Source: Phytohabitans houttuyneae
GTDB taxonomy: Bacteria; Actinomycetota; Actinomycetes; Mycobacteriales; Micromonosporaceae
Direction: 5' to 3'
NCBI RefSeq assembly: GCF_011764425.1
Contig: NZ_BLPF01000001.1
Span: forward strand, 4,517,001-4,581,000
DNA: 64,000 nt
Under the pieces are notes generated by a model. It saw nothing but the letters and a program-made list of their open reading frames with translations. It had not been told where the DNA came from and searched no databases. Within the stretch, counting starts at the first letter, position 1, and each line of letters starts with the position of its first letter. Below, in pieces: positions 1,599 to 57,055 of the stretch. The translations under genes and the position numbers were made by a program.

Positions 1599-3208
1599 CC
1601 GAAACGGCCCCGAGCTCGCTGCCGTTGCCGGTGGTGCCAGGGCTGTCCGGATTGTCAGTACTTGCCCGCGGCGGGTACGCCACCGTCTATCGCGCGATCC
1701 AGGAGTCGGTCGCACGCGAGGTCGCCGTCAAGGTGGAAAACCGCACGCTCGACAACGAGCGCGACCAGCGGCGCTTCCTGCGCGAGGCACGGGCGGCCGG
1801 TCGCATGTCGTCGCACCCGCACGTCGTCGACCTCTTCGACGCGGGCGTGACGGCCGACCAGCATCCGTACCTGATCATGGAGCTGTGCGACGGGTCGTAC
1901 GCCGACCGCATGCGCGACGCGCCGCTGGCGCCGGCCGAGGCCCGCGAGGTCGGCATCAAGATCGCCGATGCGCTGGCCGACGCGCACCAGCTCGGCGTGC
2001 TGCACCGCGACGTCAAGCCGGCCAACATCCTCTTCTCCCGCTTCGGCGAGCCCGCGCTGGCCGACTTCGGCCTCGCCATCCTCGCCGAGGCGCGCGACTC
2101 CTCGGTCACGCTCGAGGTCCTCACCCCGGCGTACGCGCCGCCGGAGATGTTCCGGCACAGCGCGCCCTCGCCCTCCGTCGACGTGTACGCGCTCTGCGCC
2201 ACCCTCTACGCGGTGATGCGCGGCAAGCCACCCCGCTGGCGGGAAGATCGCAACCCGAGCCTGATCACGCTGATGGAGCTGTTCAACCAGCCCATTCCCG
2301 ACCTGCCAGGCGTGCCCGCCGCGCTGATGGAGGTGCTGCGGCGCGGCATGGCAAACGAGCCGGAGTCCCGCCCGTCGGCCGAGCAGCTGCGCGACATGCT
2401 GACCGGGGTGTCGCTGAGCGAGCCGCCGCCCCCGTCGACACCCCGCGGCGTGTACGTGTCCCGCTCGTACGCCCCGCCGGTGCCCACCTCGCCCGCCCCG
2501 CCGGCTCCGGCATCGCCCGGCCCCTCGTCGGCCAGCCCCGCGTACCCCGTCTCGCCCGGCATCGGCTTCCCGCCCAGCAGCGGCGCCCCGTCCGGGCCGG
2601 GTGCCGGCGGTCGGCCGCCCAACCCCCTGCGCGCGCCCGGTTTCGTGCCGGCACACGACAACACCCCGACGGTCGGCACCGGCCGCCGCCGCAACATGGG
2701 CTGGATCCTCGGCGGTGTCGCCGCATTCGCCCTGCTCCTGGTCGTGGGCACCAGCGCTTGGTACATGGCCAACCGCCCGGACCCCACGCCGAGCCCCACC
2801 GCGATCATCTCGACGACCGCCGCTCCGCTCCCGTCGTTCGTCCTCGGGGCGCTGCCCGGCTGCATGCTGCCCCTCGAAGGCGGCCGCTGCCCCGCTGAGC
2901 TCGAGTGCTACGGCGCGGCGGACGCCGGCGGCCCGGGGATCCGGGCGGAGCGCGTCGACTGCAACGGCCGGCACACCTGGGAGGCGTACGCGGTCGGCGA
3001 CCTGCCCGCCGGAGCCGACCCGGCCGGCGTTGCGGACGAGCCGGCGGTCGAGGCGCTCTGCACCGAGGGCACGTTCATGCGCACGACGCTGCTGCTGTCC
3101 ACGCAGGGCTGGCAGTTCGAGGTGCTGCGACCCGACGGTGACCGCACCTTCCGCTGCCTGGCCGGCAAGGGCCGCGACGCCCTGCAGGGCCCGACGCTGG
3201 CGCGGTGA
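1595..3208 (+). CDS. Membrane serine/threonine protein kinase with extracytoplasmic Cys-rich domain
   Basis: A 537-residue PknB-type kinase. Visible motifs: Gly-rich loop about residues 24-31, catalytic Lys46 in VAVKV, HRDVKPAN at 137-144, DFG at 157-159 and an APPE motif at 181-184. A Pro/Ser-rich juxtamembrane linker (about 275-360) leads to one membrane segment (about 369-391). The outer domain (about 415-535) has several cysteines and resembles the septum-formation domains seen again in the lipoprotein at 62623-63531; this may be a sensor domain (inference). There is no PASTA repeat. GTG start overlaps the upstream stop by four bases. The next gene, a second membrane protein with an outer domain, follows after 13 bases and may be a partner. 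Confidence 0.93.
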   Translation: MTETAPSSLPLPVVPGLSGLSVLARGGYATVYRAIQESVAREVAVKVENRTLDNERDQRRFLREARAAGRMSSHPHVVDLFDAGVTADQHPYLIMELCDGSYADRMRDAPLAPAEAREVGIKIADALADAHQLGVLHRDVKPANILFSRFGEPALADFGLAILAEARDSSVTLEVLTPAYAPPEMFRHSAPSPSVDVYALCATLYAVMRGKPPRWREDRNPSLITLMELFNQPIPDLPGVPAALMEVLRRGMANEPESRPSAEQLRDMLTGVSLSEPPPPSTPRGVYVSRSYAPPVPTSPAPPAPASPGPSSASPAYPVSPGIGFPPSSGAPSGPGAGGRPPNPLRAPGFVPAHDNTPTVGTGRRRNMGWILGGVAAFALLLVVGTSAWYMANRPDPTPSPTAIISTTAAPLPSFVLGALPGCMLPLEGGRCPAELECYGAADAGGPGIRAERVDCNGRHTWEAYAVGDLPAGADPAGVADEPAVEALCTEGTFMRTTLLLSTQGWQFEVLRPDGDRTFRCLAGKGRDALQGPTLAR

Positions 3209-3221
3209 GCGGGGACCGTTG

Positions 3222-3866
3222 ATGGTTCGACTGCCGCGCCGGCGCGCGTTCGAGATGCTGCCTTGGCTGCCCACGGTCGCCGGTGTGGTGATCCTCGTCG
3301 GCCTGCTGGTCTTCGCGCTCGTCAGCCTGCGTCCGGACCGGGAGGAGCGGGCGCTGCCGCCGGCCCCGGCCGCGACGCCCCCGTTTCTGGCCGGACCGAG
3401 CGTGCCGGACGCGAGCCCTTCGCCGACGATCGGGGCCACAAACGCCTCACCGACGATCGAGGCGACGCTCGCCTCACCGCGGCGCCCGACGCCTTCCCCG
3501 TCCCGCTCCCGGGCGGCCGAGTCTCCGGCCCGGCGACCTCCGGCCCCCGAGCTGACCGGGCGCTACCGCACCTTGCAGACCTTCGACGGCGGCTTCATCG
3601 GCGAGGTGCTGGTGACCAACTCGACCACCACCGCTCGTACGTGGACGGTACGGCTGCGCTTCCCGTCGACGATCGGCCCGATGCGCACCTTCTGGGTGGA
3701 GAGCGCGCCGCAGGCGACCCTCAAGCAGGAGGGTGAGGTGTTCGCCTTCACCGGCAGCGCCCCGGTGGGTGGCAGGTCGTCGGTCGCGCTCCGCTTCCAG
3801 TTCGACCGCTCGAGCGCGGTGACGACGCCCCTGTCTTGCGAGGTCAACGGCACCGCCTGCGCGTAG
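3222..3866 (+). CDS. Membrane-anchored protein with CBM2-like beta domain
   Basis: A 214-residue protein: short basic N terminus, one membrane segment (about 14-36), a Pro/Ser/Thr-rich linker (37-107) and a C-terminal beta-rich domain (110-214). That domain shows the pattern of carbohydrate-binding module family 2: GFIGEVLVTN, then TWTVRLRFP, an exposed Trp in TFWVES, a Gly-rich turn and a closing FQF strand, with a Cys pair near the C terminus. Substrate is unknown; a cell-wall or polysaccharide ligand is inference. ATG at 3222 was chosen because it gives a clean membrane anchor 13 bases after the kinase stop. Its TAG directly abuts the stop of the convergent gene. Confidence 0.75.
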   Translation: MVRLPRRRAFEMLPWLPTVAGVVILVGLLVFALVSLRPDREERALPPAPAATPPFLAGPSVPDASPSPTIGATNASPTIEATLASPRRPTPSPSRSRAAESPARRPPAPELTGRYRTLQTFDGGFIGEVLVTNSTTTARTWTVRLRFPSTIGPMRTFWVESAPQATLKQEGEVFAFTGSAPVGGRSSVALRFQFDRSSAVTTPLSCEVNGTACA

Positions 3867-5015
3867 TCAGTACGACTTGGGCTGGGCGAGGACGTGCTGG
3901 GCGACGAAGTTCAGGATCATCTCGCGGCTGACCGGAGCTATCCGGCCGGCGCGTACGGCGCCCAGCAGCGTGGCCACGCCGTACTCCGTCGTCATGCCGT
4001 TGCCGCCGTGGACCTGGATGGCCGTGTCCACCGCGAGTGCCGCGGCGTCGGCGGCCGCGTACTTGGCCATGTTGGCCGCCACCCCGGCCTCCACGTCGCG
4101 GCCGGCGTCGTAGAGCGCGGCCGCCTTGGCGATCATGAGGCGGGCGAGCTCCACCTGGACCGCCGCGTGCGCGAGCGGGTGGGCCACGCCCTGGTGGGCG
4201 CCGATCGGGCGGCCCCACACCTGGCGCGTGGCGGTGTAGGAAGACGCGCGGCTGAGGGCGTACCGCGCGGTGCCGGCGGCCATCGCCGCCACGGTGATGC
4301 GCTCCGGGTTGAGGCCGGAGAAGAGGGCGGGCAGGCCGGCCTCGACGCCGCCGATCAGGGCGCCGGCCGGCACGCGGACGTCGTCCAGGTAGAGCAGCCA
4401 CTGGTTTTCCGGCGACACGATCTCCATGTCCAGTTTGGACGAGGTGAGCCCCGGCGCGTCGACCGGCACAAGGAAGAGCGCGGGCTGCAGCCGGTCGCCG
4501 GCCGAGACGCGGGCCACCACCAGCACGTACGCGGCCTCGTCGACCCCCGAGATGAAGCACTTGCGGCCGGAGATCAGCCAGTCGTCGCCGTCGCGGCGGG
4601 CGGTCGTGGCGAGGCGGTGGGCGTTGGAGCCGGCCTCCGGCTCGGTGATCGCGAAGGCCACCTTGAGTGACCCGTCCGCGAAGCCGGGCAGGTAGGCGGA
4701 CCGCTGGTCGGGCGTGCCGTGCTTGGCGACCACCGTGGCCGCGATGGCCGGCGAGACCACGAGCAGCAGCAGCGGGCAGCCGGCCGCGGCCAGCTCCTCG
4801 CAGACGATGGCCAGCTCGGTGATGCCGCCGCCCCCGCCGCCGTACTCCTCGGGGACGTTGACGCCCAGATAGCCGAGCTTGCCCGCCTCCGACCACAGCT
4901 CGGTGGTATGACCGCCGGACTTGGCCTTGGCCACGAAGTACTCGTGGCCGTAGCGGCGGCCGAGGGCCGCGACCGCGTCGCGGAGATCGGATTGTTGAGG
5001 GGTGAGTTCGAACAT
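3867..5015 (-). CDS. Acyl-CoA dehydrogenase
   Basis: A 382-residue FAD-dependent acyl-CoA dehydrogenase, the usual length, probably oxidising an acyl-CoA to the 2-enoyl-CoA as a partner of the carboxylase encoded upstream. Family motifs: AITEPEAGSN near 121-130, GRKCFISG near 150, and QVHGGNGM near 335. The C-terminal stretch that in many short-chain enzymes reads YEGTSEI and carries the catalytic Glu here reads RIAPVSREM, so the base may be different or supplied elsewhere. ATG at 5015 begins the conserved FELTPQQ start and lies five bases after the biotin carboxylase stop. Last gene of the leftward operon. Confidence 0.92.
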   Translation of the reverse strand: MFELTPQQSDLRDAVAALGRRYGHEYFVAKAKSGGHTTELWSEAGKLGYLGVNVPEEYGGGGGGITELAIVCEELAAAGCPLLLLVVSPAIAATVVAKHGTPDQRSAYLPGFADGSLKVAFAITEPEAGSNAHRLATTARRDGDDWLISGRKCFISGVDEAAYVLVVARVSAGDRLQPALFLVPVDAPGLTSSKLDMEIVSPENQWLLYLDDVRVPAGALIGGVEAGLPALFSGLNPERITVAAMAAGTARYALSRASSYTATRQVWGRPIGAHQGVAHPLAHAAVQVELARLMIAKAAALYDAGRDVEAGVAANMAKYAAADAAALAVDTAIQVHGGNGMTTEYGVATLLGAVRAGRIAPVSREMILNFVAQHVLAQPKSY

Positions 5016-52867: not shown

Positions 52868-53365
52868 ATGGCTCTTACGACCACCCGTTACAAGACCACG
52901 ACGGGCGCGGGCACACTCGCGGCGCTCATCCTGGTCCTTGTCTTCGGCAGCCCCTGGTACGGGGACTGGGTCGAGGACAACACCAACGCGAGCACGGCGG
53001 GCGGCTGGTTCCTGCGACTGCTGGCCTGGCCGGCATGGCGGTTCGACTCCGATGAGCGGGTTCAGGACCTCCTCTCCACCAACCTCCGGGCGATCCTTGT
53101 GGTCATCCTCACCGCACTGTTCCTCTACGCTCTGCCCGGCTCGCAGCTGGCCCGGGCTCGCGGGACACTCAGCCAGTTCTTCGCCGGGTGGTCCGCATAC
53201 ATCTTCGCCGGCGCCTTCGCGTCGCTGATCGCCGCGTTGGTCCACTCCAACCCGACGCTGCTCGGCGCGTTCCAGGCTGCCGGCTCCGGCGCGACGTACG
53301 GCCTGTTCGTCGGCTGGATCATCGGTGTCGCCTGCCTCGGAGGCTGGCGCGGCCGAGCCGCTTGA
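52868..53365 (+). CDS. Four-helix membrane protein, unknown
   Basis: A 165-residue protein with helices at about 14-32, 74-92, 98-120 and 130-152. The first outer loop is Asn/Asp/Trp-rich (SPWYGDWVEDNTN). Family not recognised. ATG at 52868 is the first start; no strong ribosome binding site is seen. A strong terminator follows 21 bases after its stop. Confidence 0.75.
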   Translation: MALTTTRYKTTTGAGTLAALILVLVFGSPWYGDWVEDNTNASTAGGWFLRLLAWPAWRFDSDERVQDLLSTNLRAILVVILTALFLYALPGSQLARARGTLSQFFAGWSAYIFAGAFASLIAALVHSNPTLLGAFQAAGSGATYGLFVGWIIGVACLGGWRGRAA

Positions 53366-53386
53366 CGTTTCCTTTATCCCTCCCCG

Positions 53387-53436
53387 GTCAAGGGGCCCCC
53401 GCATTTGCAGATGCGGGGGTCCCTTGACGTTTTTTG
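53387..53436 (+). terminator. Strong intrinsic terminator
   Basis: Arms of 18 bases, GTCAAGGGGCCCCCGCAT and ATGCGGGGGTCCCTTGAC, pair with one mismatch around the six-base loop TTGCAG and are followed by GTTTTTTG. The U tract is on the plus strand, so it ends transcription from 52868-53365; the stem may also help block the convergent ABC ATPase transcript. Confidence 0.92.
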
Positions 53437-53476: not shown

Positions 53477-54478
53477 CTACTGCTCGGCGGGGTAGTCGAT
53501 GCTCAGCAGGCGGTGGCGGGTCAGGAGGCCGACCGGCTCGTCGCCGTCGGTGACGCGCAGGTAGTCGGAGTTGGTCACCAGCATCGTGGCGAGCGCGTCG
53601 TAGAGCGACGTGCCGAGCGCGGTGGCCGGATACTCGCCGTTGTCACCGTCCAGCGGCTCCAGCATGTCGCGGGTGACCGGCGTCACGGCGAGGCGGCGGA
53701 TGCCGCGGTCGGCTCCCACGAACTCCCGGACGAACGGCGAGGCCGGGCGGCCCAGCAGGTCGGCGGGGGAGTCGTACTGCTCGAGCTTGCCGCCCTGCGA
53801 CAGCACCGCGATCCGGTCGCCGAGCCGCACCGCCTCGTCGAGGTCGTGGGTGACCAGCACGATCGTCTTGCGGACGTCGGCCTGCAGCCGCAGAAACTCC
53901 TCCTGCAGCCGCCCCCGCACGATCGGGTCCACGGCGGAGAAGGGCTCGTCCATCAGCAGCACGACCGGGTCCGCCGCCAGCGCGCGGGCCACGCCGACGC
54001 GCTGCCGCTGCCCGCCGGAGAGCTCCTGCGGGTACCGCTTGCCGAACTTCGCCGGGTCGAGCCCGACCAGCTCCAGCAGCTCGTCCGACCGCTGCCGGAC
54101 GCGGGCGCGCGACCAGCCGAGCAGCCGGGGAACGGTGCCGACGTTGGCCTGGATCGTCTGGTGGGGAAAGAGTCCGACGTTCTGGATCACGTACCCGATG
54201 CGGCGGCGCAGCTCCACCGGGTCGGCGCTGGTGACGTCTTCGCCGTCAAGCATGATCTTGCCGGCGGTAGGCTCGATCAGCCGGTTGACCATGCGCAGCA
54301 CGGTGGACTTGCCGCAGCCGGACGGTCCGATGAGGACGACAAGCTCGCCGGCGCGCACCTCCAGGCTGAGGTCACCCACGGCGACCGTCCCGTCGGGGTA
54401 CTGCTTCCGAATCCCGACAAGTTCTATCGGGGCGGCCTTCTTTTCTGCCGAGGCGTCGCCCGTCGCGGTAGCGTCCAC
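53477..54478 (-). CDS. Glycine betaine/choline-type ABC transporter ATPase (OpuCA/ProV-like)
   Basis: A 333-residue ATPase. Walker A GPSGCGKST is near 54-62, Q-loop VIQNVGLFPH near 96, signature LSGGQRQRVGVARAL near 146, Walker B VVLLMDEPF near 166 and H-loop LVTHD near 202. The C-terminal 90 residues form two CBS-like motifs (about 245-333), as in OpuCA/ProV, where they sense ionic strength. GTG at 54478 has GGAAGG six bases upstream. It is divergent from the permease gene with only two bases between start codons. Confidence 0.92.
   Translation of the reverse strand: MDATATGDASAEKKAAPIELVGIRKQYPDGTVAVGDLSLEVRAGELVVLIGPSGCGKSTVLRMVNRLIEPTAGKIMLDGEDVTSADPVELRRRIGYVIQNVGLFPHQTIQANVGTVPRLLGWSRARVRQRSDELLELVGLDPAKFGKRYPQELSGGQRQRVGVARALAADPVVLLMDEPFSAVDPIVRGRLQEEFLRLQADVRKTIVLVTHDLDEAVRLGDRIAVLSQGGKLEQYDSPADLLGRPASPFVREFVGADRGIRRLAVTPVTRDMLEPLDGDNGEYPATALGTSLYDALATMLVTNSDYLRVTDGDEPVGLLTRHRLLSIDYPAEQ
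54469..54474 (+). promoter_or_regulatory. Putative -10 element of a leaderless promoter for the importer permease
   Basis: TAGCGT fits TANNNT and ends six bases before ATG 54481. It lies inside the first codons of the divergent ATPase gene, so the two promoters overlap each other's coding sequence. Confidence 0.45.
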
Positions 54479-54480
54479 GT

Positions 54481-55170
54481 ATGTCCTTCCGGCTCGCTCT
54501 TCAGGAGAGCCCGGGAAACCCATGGTTTTCCTGGCAGTACGTGCGGGACAACTCCGACACCATCCTCGCGGCGCTGCGAGAGCACGCGACGCTGACGGCG
54601 GAAGCCATGCTGATCGCGACGGTGGTGGCGGTGCCACTGGCCGTCGTGGCGTATTGGTACCGCCCCCTCACCGGCCCGATTCTTGCACTGTCCGGCGTCC
54701 TGTACACCATCCCCTCGCTGGCTCTGCTCGCGTTCGTCGCGCCCTACGTCGGCACGACCAACCCCGCGTCCGTGCTGATCGCACTCGTTCTCTACGCGCT
54801 GTTGCTGATCGTGCGCAACTCGCTGGCCGGGCTCAACCAGGTGCCGCCGGAGGCGCGTGACGCCGCGCAGGGCATGGGCTACGGGCGGTGGGGCCGGCTC
54901 TTCCGCATCGACCTGCCGCTGGCGCTGCCCGGCATCTTCACAGGCCTGCGCCTGGCAACTGTGTCGACGGTCGCGCTGGTGACGGTCGGTGCACTGATCG
55001 GGTACGGCGGGCTCGGCGACCTGATCCTGACCGGCTTCCGCAACAACTTCTACAAGGCCGAGATCCTCACCGGCGCGGTTCTCTGCGTCGGCCTGGCGCT
55101 CGTGCTGGACCTGCTGCTCGCCACCGCGGGACGGCTGCTGACACCGTGGAGCCGGAGGGGGGCAAGGTGA
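54481..55170 (+). CDS. Glycine betaine/choline-type ABC permease, first (OpuCB-like)
   Basis: A 229-residue permease with about five to six helices (from about 38). The EAA loop is EARDAAQGMGYGRWGRLFRIDLPLALPGI (quoted motif EARDAAQGMGYG, about 122-133), which contacts the ATPase. ATG at 54481 agrees with a leaderless promoter; a GTG at 54541 is a possible shorter start. GTGA overlap of four bases with the second permease. Confidence 0.92.
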   Translation: MSFRLALQESPGNPWFSWQYVRDNSDTILAALREHATLTAEAMLIATVVAVPLAVVAYWYRPLTGPILALSGVLYTIPSLALLAFVAPYVGTTNPASVLIALVLYALLLIVRNSLAGLNQVPPEARDAAQGMGYGRWGRLFRIDLPLALPGIFTGLRLATVSTVALVTVGALIGYGGLGDLILTGFRNNFYKAEILTGAVLCVGLALVLDLLLATAGRLLTPWSRRGAR

Positions 55171-55898
55171 GGGCGGAAAACCCGTTCCAGCAGGCGGTGA
55201 CCTGGCTGAACGACCCGCTCAACTGGACGAATCCCGGCGGCATCCTGGACCGCCTCGGCGAGCACCTGTGGATCTCGGCGGCCGCCGTCGCGCTGGGGTG
55301 CATGGTCGCCTGGCCGATCGGCATGTGGCTGGGGCACTCGGGCCGGGGTGGCAGCGCGGTTGTGATGATCTCGAACCTGACGCTCGCCATCCCCACGATC
55401 GCGTTGCTGACGATCCTCCCGCTGACGTTCCTCGGCTTCGGCAAGCCGCCGGTGGTCGTGGCGCTGGCCGTCTTCGCCGTGCCGCCACTGCTGGCCAATG
55501 CGTACACCGGCGTCCGCTCCATCGACCCGGAGGCACGGGACGCGGCCCGCGGCATGGGGCTGTCCGGCTGGCAGGTGCTGGGACGGGTGGAGCTGCCGCT
55601 CGCCGTGCCGTACCTGGCCGCCGGCTTCCGTACCGCGTCGGTGCAGGTGGTGGCGACGGCCGCGCTCGCCTCCTTCGTGAACGGCGGCGGGCTCGGCCAG
55701 ATCATCAGCGCCGGCTTCGGCTTGGGCATCGCGGTCGGCGGCGGCCAGATCCTCGCCGGCGGCATCCTCGTCGCGGTGCTCGCGATCCTTGTCGAGGCGC
55801 TCCTGGCCGTCGTCGAGCGGGCGGTCACGCCCAAGCCGCTGCGCCGCGCCCGGGGCCGTGCCGCGCGTCGCGCCGCCGCGGCCACGGGAAACGCCTAA
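55167..55898 (+). CDS. Glycine betaine/choline-type ABC permease, second (OpuCD-like)
   Basis: A 243-residue permease; helices from about 33 on. EAA loop EARDAARGMGLSGWQVLGRV at about 117-136. It should pair with the first permease, whose stop it overlaps by four bases (GTG start at 55167). The basic C-terminal tail RRARGRAARRAAAA is cytosolic. The binding-protein gene follows after 152 bases holding an inverted-repeat structure. Confidence 0.92.
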   Translation: MRAENPFQQAVTWLNDPLNWTNPGGILDRLGEHLWISAAAVALGCMVAWPIGMWLGHSGRGGSAVVMISNLTLAIPTIALLTILPLTFLGFGKPPVVVALAVFAVPPLLANAYTGVRSIDPEARDAARGMGLSGWQVLGRVELPLAVPYLAAGFRTASVQVVATAALASFVNGGGLGQIISAGFGLGIAVGGGQILAGGILVAVLAILVEALLAVVERAVTPKPLRRARGRAARRAAAATGNA

Positions 55899-56050: not shown

Positions 56051-57055
56051 TTGCGCGCACGTTCACGTCTGGTGCTGGGTGCGGTGAGCGCCCTCGCCGG
56101 AGGCATGATCCTCGCAGGATGCGGCGACGAGGGATCGTCGGGCACCGAGGCGCCGGCCACCGGCGCAGCGGGCGCCGGTTGCGCACCAGCGGCGGGCACC
56201 CAGCTCGTCGTCCTCGAAGACGACAAAAAGCTACAAAATACGGACAATATCGTGCCGGCCATCAACGCCAAGGCGTCGAAGCCGGAGTTGATAGCGGCAC
56301 TCGACAAGGTGTCGGCGGCGCTCGACACCACCAAGCTGATCGAGCTCAACAAGGCGGTCGACGTCGACCGCAAGACGCCCAAGGTGGCGGCCGAGGAGTT
56401 CGCCACGGCCAATTCGCTCACCACCGGCATCACCAAGGGCCAGGGCGGTCCGATCACCATCGGCGCGGCCAACTTCAGCGAAAACCAGACGCTCGGCGAG
56501 CTCTACCGGATCGTGCTGACCGCGGCTGGCTACCAGGCCAAGGTGCAGCAGATCGGTAACCGTGAGCTTTACGAGCCGGCCCTGGAAAAGGGTGAGATCC
56601 AGGTCGTCCCGGAGTACGCGGCGACGCTGGCCGACTTCCTCAACGGCAAGGTCAACGGCGCCAGCGCGGCGGCGATCTCCTCGCCCGACCTGGACAAGAC
56701 GATGGAGGGCCTGAAGACGGTCGGCGACAAGGTCGGCCTCACGTTCGGCGCGCCGTCGGCGGCGCAGGATCAGAACGCGTTCGCCGTCACCAAGGAGTTC
56801 GCCGACAAGAACGGCCTGAAGACGCTCTCCGACCTCGCCGCCAAGTGCTCCGGTACCGCCACGATCCTCGGTGGTCCGCCGGAGTGCCCGCAGCGGCCGA
56901 AGTGCCAGAAGGGCCTGGAAGAGGTCTACAGCTTCAAGGCCGGCTCCTTCAGTTCGCTGGACGCGGGCGGTCCGCAGACCAAGTCGGCGCTCACCACCGG
57001 CACGATCAGCATCGGCCTGGTGTTCTCGTCGGACGGTGCCCTGGCCGCCGGCTGA
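56051..57055 (+). CDS. Glycine betaine/choline-type binding lipoprotein, circularly permuted
   Basis: A 334-residue lipoprotein (lipobox ILAGC, Cys23-24 region) of the OpuAC/OsmF-type fold, but with the order of segments exchanged. The part that ends normal proteins (LVVLEDDKKLQNTDNIVPA through VAAEEFATANSL, about 52-125) comes first, and the part that normally begins them (ITIGAANFSENQTLGELY.. NRELYEPAL.. VVPEYAATLADFL) follows from about 136. The chain ends at VFSSDGALAAG, which in the usual order leads into VVLEDD. TTG at 56051 is the only start giving a signal peptide. Last gene of the importer unit. Confidence 0.88.
   Translation: MRARSRLVLGAVSALAGGMILAGCGDEGSSGTEAPATGAAGAGCAPAAGTQLVVLEDDKKLQNTDNIVPAINAKASKPELIAALDKVSAALDTTKLIELNKAVDVDRKTPKVAAEEFATANSLTTGITKGQGGPITIGAANFSENQTLGELYRIVLTAAGYQAKVQQIGNRELYEPALEKGEIQVVPEYAATLADFLNGKVNGASAAAISSPDLDKTMEGLKTVGDKVGLTFGAPSAAQDQNAFAVTKEFADKNGLKTLSDLAAKCSGTATILGGPPECPQRPKCQKGLEEVYSFKAGSFSSLDAGGPQTKSALTTGTISIGLVFSSDGALAAG

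Follow-up and report, generated by a model that had tools for sequence, protein, structure and literature searches.

A gene in a 64,000-nucleotide stretch of the Phytohabitans houttuyneae genome (NCBI RefSeq assembly GCF_011764425.1, contig NZ_BLPF01000001.1; referred to here as the window) was found to encode a naturally circularly permuted binding protein of the OpuAC/OsmF type. The open reading frame (ORF; 56051-57055, forward strand), which begins with a TTG start codon, specifies a lipoprotein of 334 amino acids, designated here as type CP1. Its permuted order is conserved in other genomes, its gene occupies the binding-protein position of an ATP-binding cassette (ABC) importer operon, residues of the ligand pocket are retained and a pair of cysteines, Cys44 and Cys266, accompanies the permuted form. 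The original prediction, made from the sequence, had proposed that the segment starting LVVLEDDKKLQ, which is C-terminal in the usual order, stands first and that the chain ends with SDGALAAG, and both statements were borne out by the analyses described below.

The protein matched the OpuAC family profile (PF04069) with 140.6 bits (E=8.9e-41; gathering cut-off 21.2 bits), not as a single collinear match but as two stretches in swapped order, with profile positions 187-255 (residues 51-118) preceding positions 2-184 (residues 134-332). The two stretches cover the family once and without overlap, and the N-terminal segment was itself recognized as OpuAC 187-255 (E=5.9e-10). The score against the NCBIfam OsmF equivalog NF049931 was 68.5 bits, below the curated cut-off of 400 bits, and the protein was thus not assigned to that equivalog. 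In local alignments to nine hand-picked canonical relatives (i.e. those with the usual chain order), the rotated order outscored the linear order in all nine cases, with scores of 350-774 for the rotated, 260-584 for the linear and at most 50-81 for shuffled sequences; for L132, the scores were 774 and 584, respectively, with 155 identities in 275 positions. As the linear alignment was never the better one, the predicted permutation stands. A linear reading, in which a truncated OpuAC domain follows an unrelated N-terminal extension, is ruled out by the swapped PF04069 stretches and the rotated alignment scores. Alignment also placed the new ends directly before VVLEDD and showed the old ends to be closed by about 11 residues, close to the predicted linker of about ten.

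That the order is an artefact, caused by a frameshift, a misassembly or a fortuitous N-terminal extension of an otherwise ordinary binding protein, is vanishingly improbable, given the OpuAC match of the N-terminal segment and the recurrence of the same order in 37 of 79 loci of named assemblies, retained as the best among 259 candidates, and in 73 of the 205 distinct proteins. No stop codons were observed inside the family-sample matches listed, and the ratio of non-synonymous to synonymous substitution rates (dN/dS) of the window gene against five chosen relatives was 0.11-0.23. Recurrence in other genomes and dN/dS together rule out an assembly error or a pseudogene.

The encoded chain opens with a lipoprotein signal peptide (56051-56122) carrying the lipobox LAGC at residues 21-24, of which the lipidated Cys24 (codon 56120-56122) is invariant across the 30 rows of alignment A1. 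This is followed by a new N-terminal tail (residues 25-51; 56123-56203), with the motif GSSGTxAP in A1 and with Cys44 encoded at 56180-56182. The old C-terminal segment, as delimited by profile matches and mapping onto EgtUC, spans residues 52-123 (56204-56419); within it, interdomain linker 2 (LEDDKKLQNTDN, residues 55-66) connects the last stretch of lobe 2 with the second part of lobe 1. The new joint between the old ends, TTGITKGQGGP (residues 124-134; 56420-56452), leads into the formerly N-terminal portion of lobe 1 (residues 135-239; 56453-56767), which starts with ITIGAANFSENQ, and lobe 2 forms a single contiguous C-terminal piece (residues 240-334; 56768-57052), as delimited by pocket alignment and EgtUC mapping. 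All these parts are encoded on the forward strand.

The hinge of binding proteins is generally held to govern closure. According to PMC9732360, a two-stranded hinge identifies a type II binding protein, and EgtUC is described as having a lobe 1 made up of residues 233-331 and 445-506 and a lobe 2 of residues 341-432, with two linkers joining them. Profile alignment to EgtUC chain 9egh (published number = chain index + 229; linker limits from the same text) showed that EgtUC linker 2 (433-444) corresponds to window residues 55-66 and that D240 and N242 correspond to EgtUC N339 and Y341 at the end of linker 1. Opposite the start of the CP1 chain lies EgtUC residue 430, and opposite its end about residues 425-428, so that the cut lies three to eight residues ahead of linker 2. 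The new ends were thus located where the second interdomain strand meets lobe 2, and not on a surface loop as had been predicted. With a chain that begins just ahead of hinge strand 2, each lobe is contiguous (lobe 1, residues 52-239; lobe 2, residues 240-334). Because the start lies three residues ahead of linker 2 and the end is on the same, lobe-2 side, linker 1 is the sole covalent crossover. By alignment, the window protein therefore has one covalent interdomain strand instead of the two typical of type II (cluster F) proteins. An altered domain closure in CP1 would be plausible.

Structure prediction, proposed as a check in the original prediction, agreed with the family assignment. The AlphaFold2 model of the window protein, computed from 30 CP1 sequences, exhibited a mean predicted local distance difference test (pLDDT) score of 89.8 and a predicted template modelling (pTM) score of 0.83, with the two alpha/beta lobes of the cluster F fold, and the first 40 of the 50 PDB matches listed were OpuAC/OpuBC/ProX/OsmF/EgtU-type binding proteins or sensors derived from such proteins. 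The model aligned to canonical relatives over about residues 108-311 and to Bacillus subtilis OpuAC, the top match, over residues 16-241. The latter was again the top match in Foldseek, where template modelling (TM) scores against the family were only about 0.37-0.59, as expected when a permuted chain meets a sequential aligner. B. subtilis OpuAC was not recovered by sequence among PDB chains using A1 or A2, and was found by structure comparison alone.

Upstream of the CP1 gene lie two permease genes of the BPD_transp_1 family on the forward strand (permease 1, 54481-55170, PF00528 E=4.1e-19; permease 2, 55167-55898, E=1.7e-24) and, divergently on the reverse strand, a betaine/choline-type (proV-like) ATPase gene (53477-54475), whose product scored 314.2 bits against TIGR01186, slightly below the cut-off of 326.6. 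The adjacent ATPase and two permeases are the components expected of a betaine-type ABC importer. Synteny was compared across 32 chosen loci, leaving out L162, L163, L165 and L166 (four of the 12 transporter-type loci fetched for CP2, a second permuted type described below), and the gene order divergent ATPase, permease 1, permease 2 and binding protein was observed in 13 of the 13 CP1 loci examined. The conserved operon order, the low dN/dS and the proV-like ATPase indicate that the window protein most likely serves the adjacent importer as its working binding protein.

Pocket positions were compared with the ligand-contact and cage residues of AfProX; those of EgtUC were taken from PMC9732360. 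Equivalents of AfProX Tyr63, Thr66, Glu145 and Arg149 are kept in the window protein, and Lys13, Tyr111 and Tyr214 are replaced by Ala140, Asn242 and Asp65, respectively. Within CP1, Y189 (the Tyr63 equivalent) and D65 were found in 73 of 73 proteins and N242 in 72 of 73; canonical relatives carry Asn at position 242 in 108 of 114 cases and Asp or Glu at position 65 in 109 of 114, and position 140 is variable among them. The aromatic cage around a quaternary amine that characterizes subcluster F-III is hence incomplete, and the three replacements provide no support for a full-cage simple betaine as ligand. The earlier designation 'betaine-type' thus holds for family membership but not for these three cage or carboxylate positions of betaine binders.

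Besides Cys24, the window protein contains Cys44, Cys266 (56846-56848), Cys279 (56885-56887) and Cys285 (56903-56905). Cys279 and Cys285 each have a counterpart in 110 of the 114 canonical relatives. Cys44 belongs to the new tail and Cys266 to lobe 2; the two were jointly present in 71 of the 72 CP1 proteins scored and never singly, while much of the tail is otherwise variable; L131, outside the 72 scored by script, shows both by eye. A lobe-2 equivalent of Cys266 was missing in all canonical (110/110), CP2 (13/13) and CP3 (2/2) proteins scored. A disulfide between Cys44 and Cys266 would reattach the free hinge strand to lobe 2. The single CP1 protein lacking both cysteines, L039, branches near the CP1 base in both trees described below, a position which would fit the permutation arising first and the cysteines later; this order is weakened by L131, which carries the pair and may branch deeper or elsewhere. 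Among canonical relatives, L137-L141 carry a cysteine in the N-terminal tail and five rows share one at another lobe 1 column (alignment column 27), possibly representing an independent tail staple.

CP1 was observed in the Micromonosporaceae genera Phytohabitans, Micromonospora, Plantactinospora, Paractinoplanes, Asanoa and Dactylosporangium, in Actinotalea and Cellulomonas (Cellulomonadaceae), in Luteimicrobium and in metagenome-assembled genomes, the 42 other loci of the set of 79 being canonical and almost all from Streptomyces. Matches were found in 283 of the 300 genomes of the family sample, and the stronger ones, as listed, spanned the query in one piece, from residue 1-13 to residue 332-334. 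Re-examination of 16 genomes, mostly picked for weak or multiple matches, revealed CP1 in six, a canonical-order best match alone in nine (E=1e-34 to 1e-42) and weak matches only in G074; G163 carries both CP1 and a canonical copy. The permeases of the canonical loci in the re-examined genomes are 40-44 % identical to those of the window (six loci with permeases in reach) and, judged by this divergence, such a locus is a paralogous operon. Among the matches listed, one match spanning nearly the whole profile was found in 17 of 394 genomes of the class sample, from six families, and in two of 396 genomes of the phylum sample (the window's own and one of its family), with none of the latter matches lying beyond the window's class. 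The genome of the window itself holds one CP1-type gene and three further, weak OpuAC matches. Of 349 matching plasmid records, two had one place covering at least 80 % of the query, in two pieces and with ~39 % identity. The Cellulomonadaceae copies L015, L018 and L023 of the CP1 gene nest within the Micromonosporaceae clade, which suggests horizontal transfer; their ATPases and permeases are also 70-81 % identical to those of the window.

When all chain starts and ends were placed on one circle by means of a doubled profile of the 283-position ring, the 205 distinct proteins comprised 114 canonical, 73 CP1, 14 CP2, two CP3 and two partial forms. CP2 proteins begin at the lobe-2 stretch LxLGGPPECP and end soon after SDLA; they are cut inside lobe 2, with the chain order of B. 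subtilis OpuAC (2B4L). CP2 was identified at loci L155-L166 (genomes G795, G765, G720, G884, G854, G935, G962, G857, G744, G968, G749 and G867, respectively), of which L163 and L165 are interrupted by contig ends, and coexists with canonical copies in five genomes (G720, G744, G935, G857 and G867). CP3, found at L167 (G1037) and L168 (G1030), is cut ~30 residues beyond the CP2 cut, also in lobe 2. The gene lies behind permease 2 in both CP3 loci and in eight of the ten CP2 loci examined; the remaining two are enzyme fusions. Five AlphaFold2 models of CP2, computed from ten sequences, had mean pLDDT values from 87.3 down to 44.6.

Two trees were constructed after removal of near-copies and partial rows, one with 112 rows from the 205 distinct rings, whose bootstrap had not settled, and one with 81 rows from 127. 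L042 and L142 were dropped as partial. In the larger tree, CP1 formed one branch (support 96/76 including L131 and 100/90 without it), as did CP3 (100/99), and CP2 was scattered. The smaller tree placed the long-branch L131 with canonical rows (starred support 98/84) and would require two changes for CP1, contrary to a single CP1 origin; a constraint keeping all CP1 together was not rejected (p=0.40). A single clade of all permuted forms, excluding two enzyme fusions, was rejected (approximately unbiased test, p=1.2e-87), as was one of CP2 minus the enzyme fusions (p=1.1e-4); the CP2 core of families f49 and f90 was not rejected as a clade (p=0.063). We read these results as a minimum of four separate changes (CP1, CP3 and CP2 twice), with the proviso that the trees have long branches and that, being unrooted, they do not distinguish gain from loss. 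The binding protein would thus seem to have been reshuffled repeatedly and separately within the same transporter operon. Duplication is one of two main models for permutation according to PMC3320104. At L250, two canonical ORFs overlap head to tail behind permease 2 (2636-3628 and 3609-4535, reverse complement), an arrangement which is a plausible starting point for permutation by duplication.

Circular permutation among glycine betaine-binding proteins, including OpuAC, is reported in PMC2395249. OpuAC of B. subtilis (2B4L/2B4M) is among the closest known systems, but its cut inside lobe 2 and its chain order are those of CP2 and not of the window protein. OsmF/YehZ, AfProX, EgtUC and OpuBC, the last three of which are assigned to subcluster F-III in PMC9732360, are sequence relatives of CP1 over the whole ring and share the Tyr63, Thr66, Glu145 and Arg149 equivalents, but differ in having the canonical chain order and two covalent crossovers. 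TpMglB-2 of Treponema pallidum, described in PMC4990184 as a naturally permuted lipoprotein and 'Type Ic' binding protein, resembles CP1 in being a permuted, lipid-anchored binding protein, and its binding and closure are reported to be retained; unlike CP1, it has a type I fold and binds sugar, and its permutation adds a fourth crossover, whereas CP1 loses one of two. The permutation is thus natural, as predicted, but with OpuAC and TpMglB-2 as precedents it is less unusual than was supposed. Literature searches, for which subscription journals were mostly out of reach, retrieved no published description of the CP1 order, and the words 'permut-', 'dislocation' and 'swap' are absent from Wolters 2010 (PMC2861598).

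The reading we consider probable is that of a lipid-anchored binding protein serving the adjacent ABC importer, cut at its hinge, tied by a disulfide and born from a duplication, with the same slot permuted separately elsewhere. Such a protein would have the fold of OsmF/ProX/EgtUC (type II, two lobes, two-stranded hinge), with its chain starting just ahead of hinge strand 2. The permuted chain would fold into the normal closed-ring structure, with hinge strand 2 still packed between the lobes, and the Cys44-Cys266 disulfide would anchor the free strand to lobe 2, thereby restoring a second lobe connection. Ligand bound in the cleft would close the lobes and the complex would dock onto the two permeases. 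CP1 probably arose when a canonical gene behind permease 2 was duplicated in tandem and the outer parts were then lost, and in other Actinomycetota the same slot would have undergone separate permutations at two further cuts. More tentative, and to us slightly on the doubtful side, is the further proposal that Cys44-Cys266 replaces the lost peptide link, possibly yielding a redox-sensitive fly-trap with one crossover, in a slot rewired at least four times at three cut points within one phylum. Several observations weigh against these readings. Sequential aligners are unable to cover the whole permuted model, so that its full superposition is something we infer; the Cys pair may have been gained just once or twice, in which case its co-occurrence with CP1 does not represent many independent events; and L039 shows that the pair is not strictly required for the permuted form. 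Moreover, the true intermediate, a fused tandem copy, was absent from the matches listed (longest model span of 319 positions against the ring of 283, one match per ORF), only adjacent tandem genes being found.

CP1 could instead be a neutral topological variant which works exactly like the canonical form, with closure unaffected by the hinge cut and the Cys pair merely stapling a floppy lipoprotein tail; we regard this as rather unlikely. It would fit the pocket positions checked, which are largely alike in all orders, the unchanged operon slot, the normal binding and closure reported for permuted TpMglB-2, and the cysteines in canonical tails (L137-L141) and at the five-row lobe 1 column, which suggest that stapling may occur without permutation. 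However, the CP1 tail runs straight into the hinge strand and the presumed partner cysteine lies in the other lobe, so that a staple would join lobe 2 to the free strand, and the pair is kept in all but one of the CP1 rows scored although much of the tail varies. A domain-swapped dimer, in which each chain lends its N-terminal segment to a neighbour to complete the hinge and lobe 1 there, is very improbable: a free hinge strand at the chain end would permit such an exchange in principle, but the joint of ~11 residues is consistent with a connection within one chain, and the structure prediction for the single chain was of high confidence. Canonical relatives are, in addition, generally regarded as acting singly.

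CP1 persists under purifying selection behind the same permeases despite the loss of one covalent hinge strand. The presence of canonical, CP1, CP2 and CP3 forms in one slot would allow the effect of hinge connectivity on affinity, closure and docking to be addressed directly, as well as the way in which permutation arises, with tandem gene copies as a possible starting point. Were the disulfide-replaced hinge and the at least four rewirings to hold true, the family would amount to a natural experiment on the limits that chain connectivity sets to lobe closure. In annotation, proteins like CP1 appear to linear family models as two fragments.

The two enzyme fusions, L242 (1070-3352, reverse strand) and L243 (1427-3505, forward strand), join a CP2-type OpuAC ring to PG_binding_1 and polysaccharide deacetylase domains, thereby placing a binding-protein fold on an apparent cell-wall enzyme; transporter genes were not detected within the stretches fetched. 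Within the window, a GC-rich inverted repeat followed by a T-rich stretch (53383-53435) lies between convergent gene ends near 53365 and 53477 and, judged by eye, looks like a two-way terminator.
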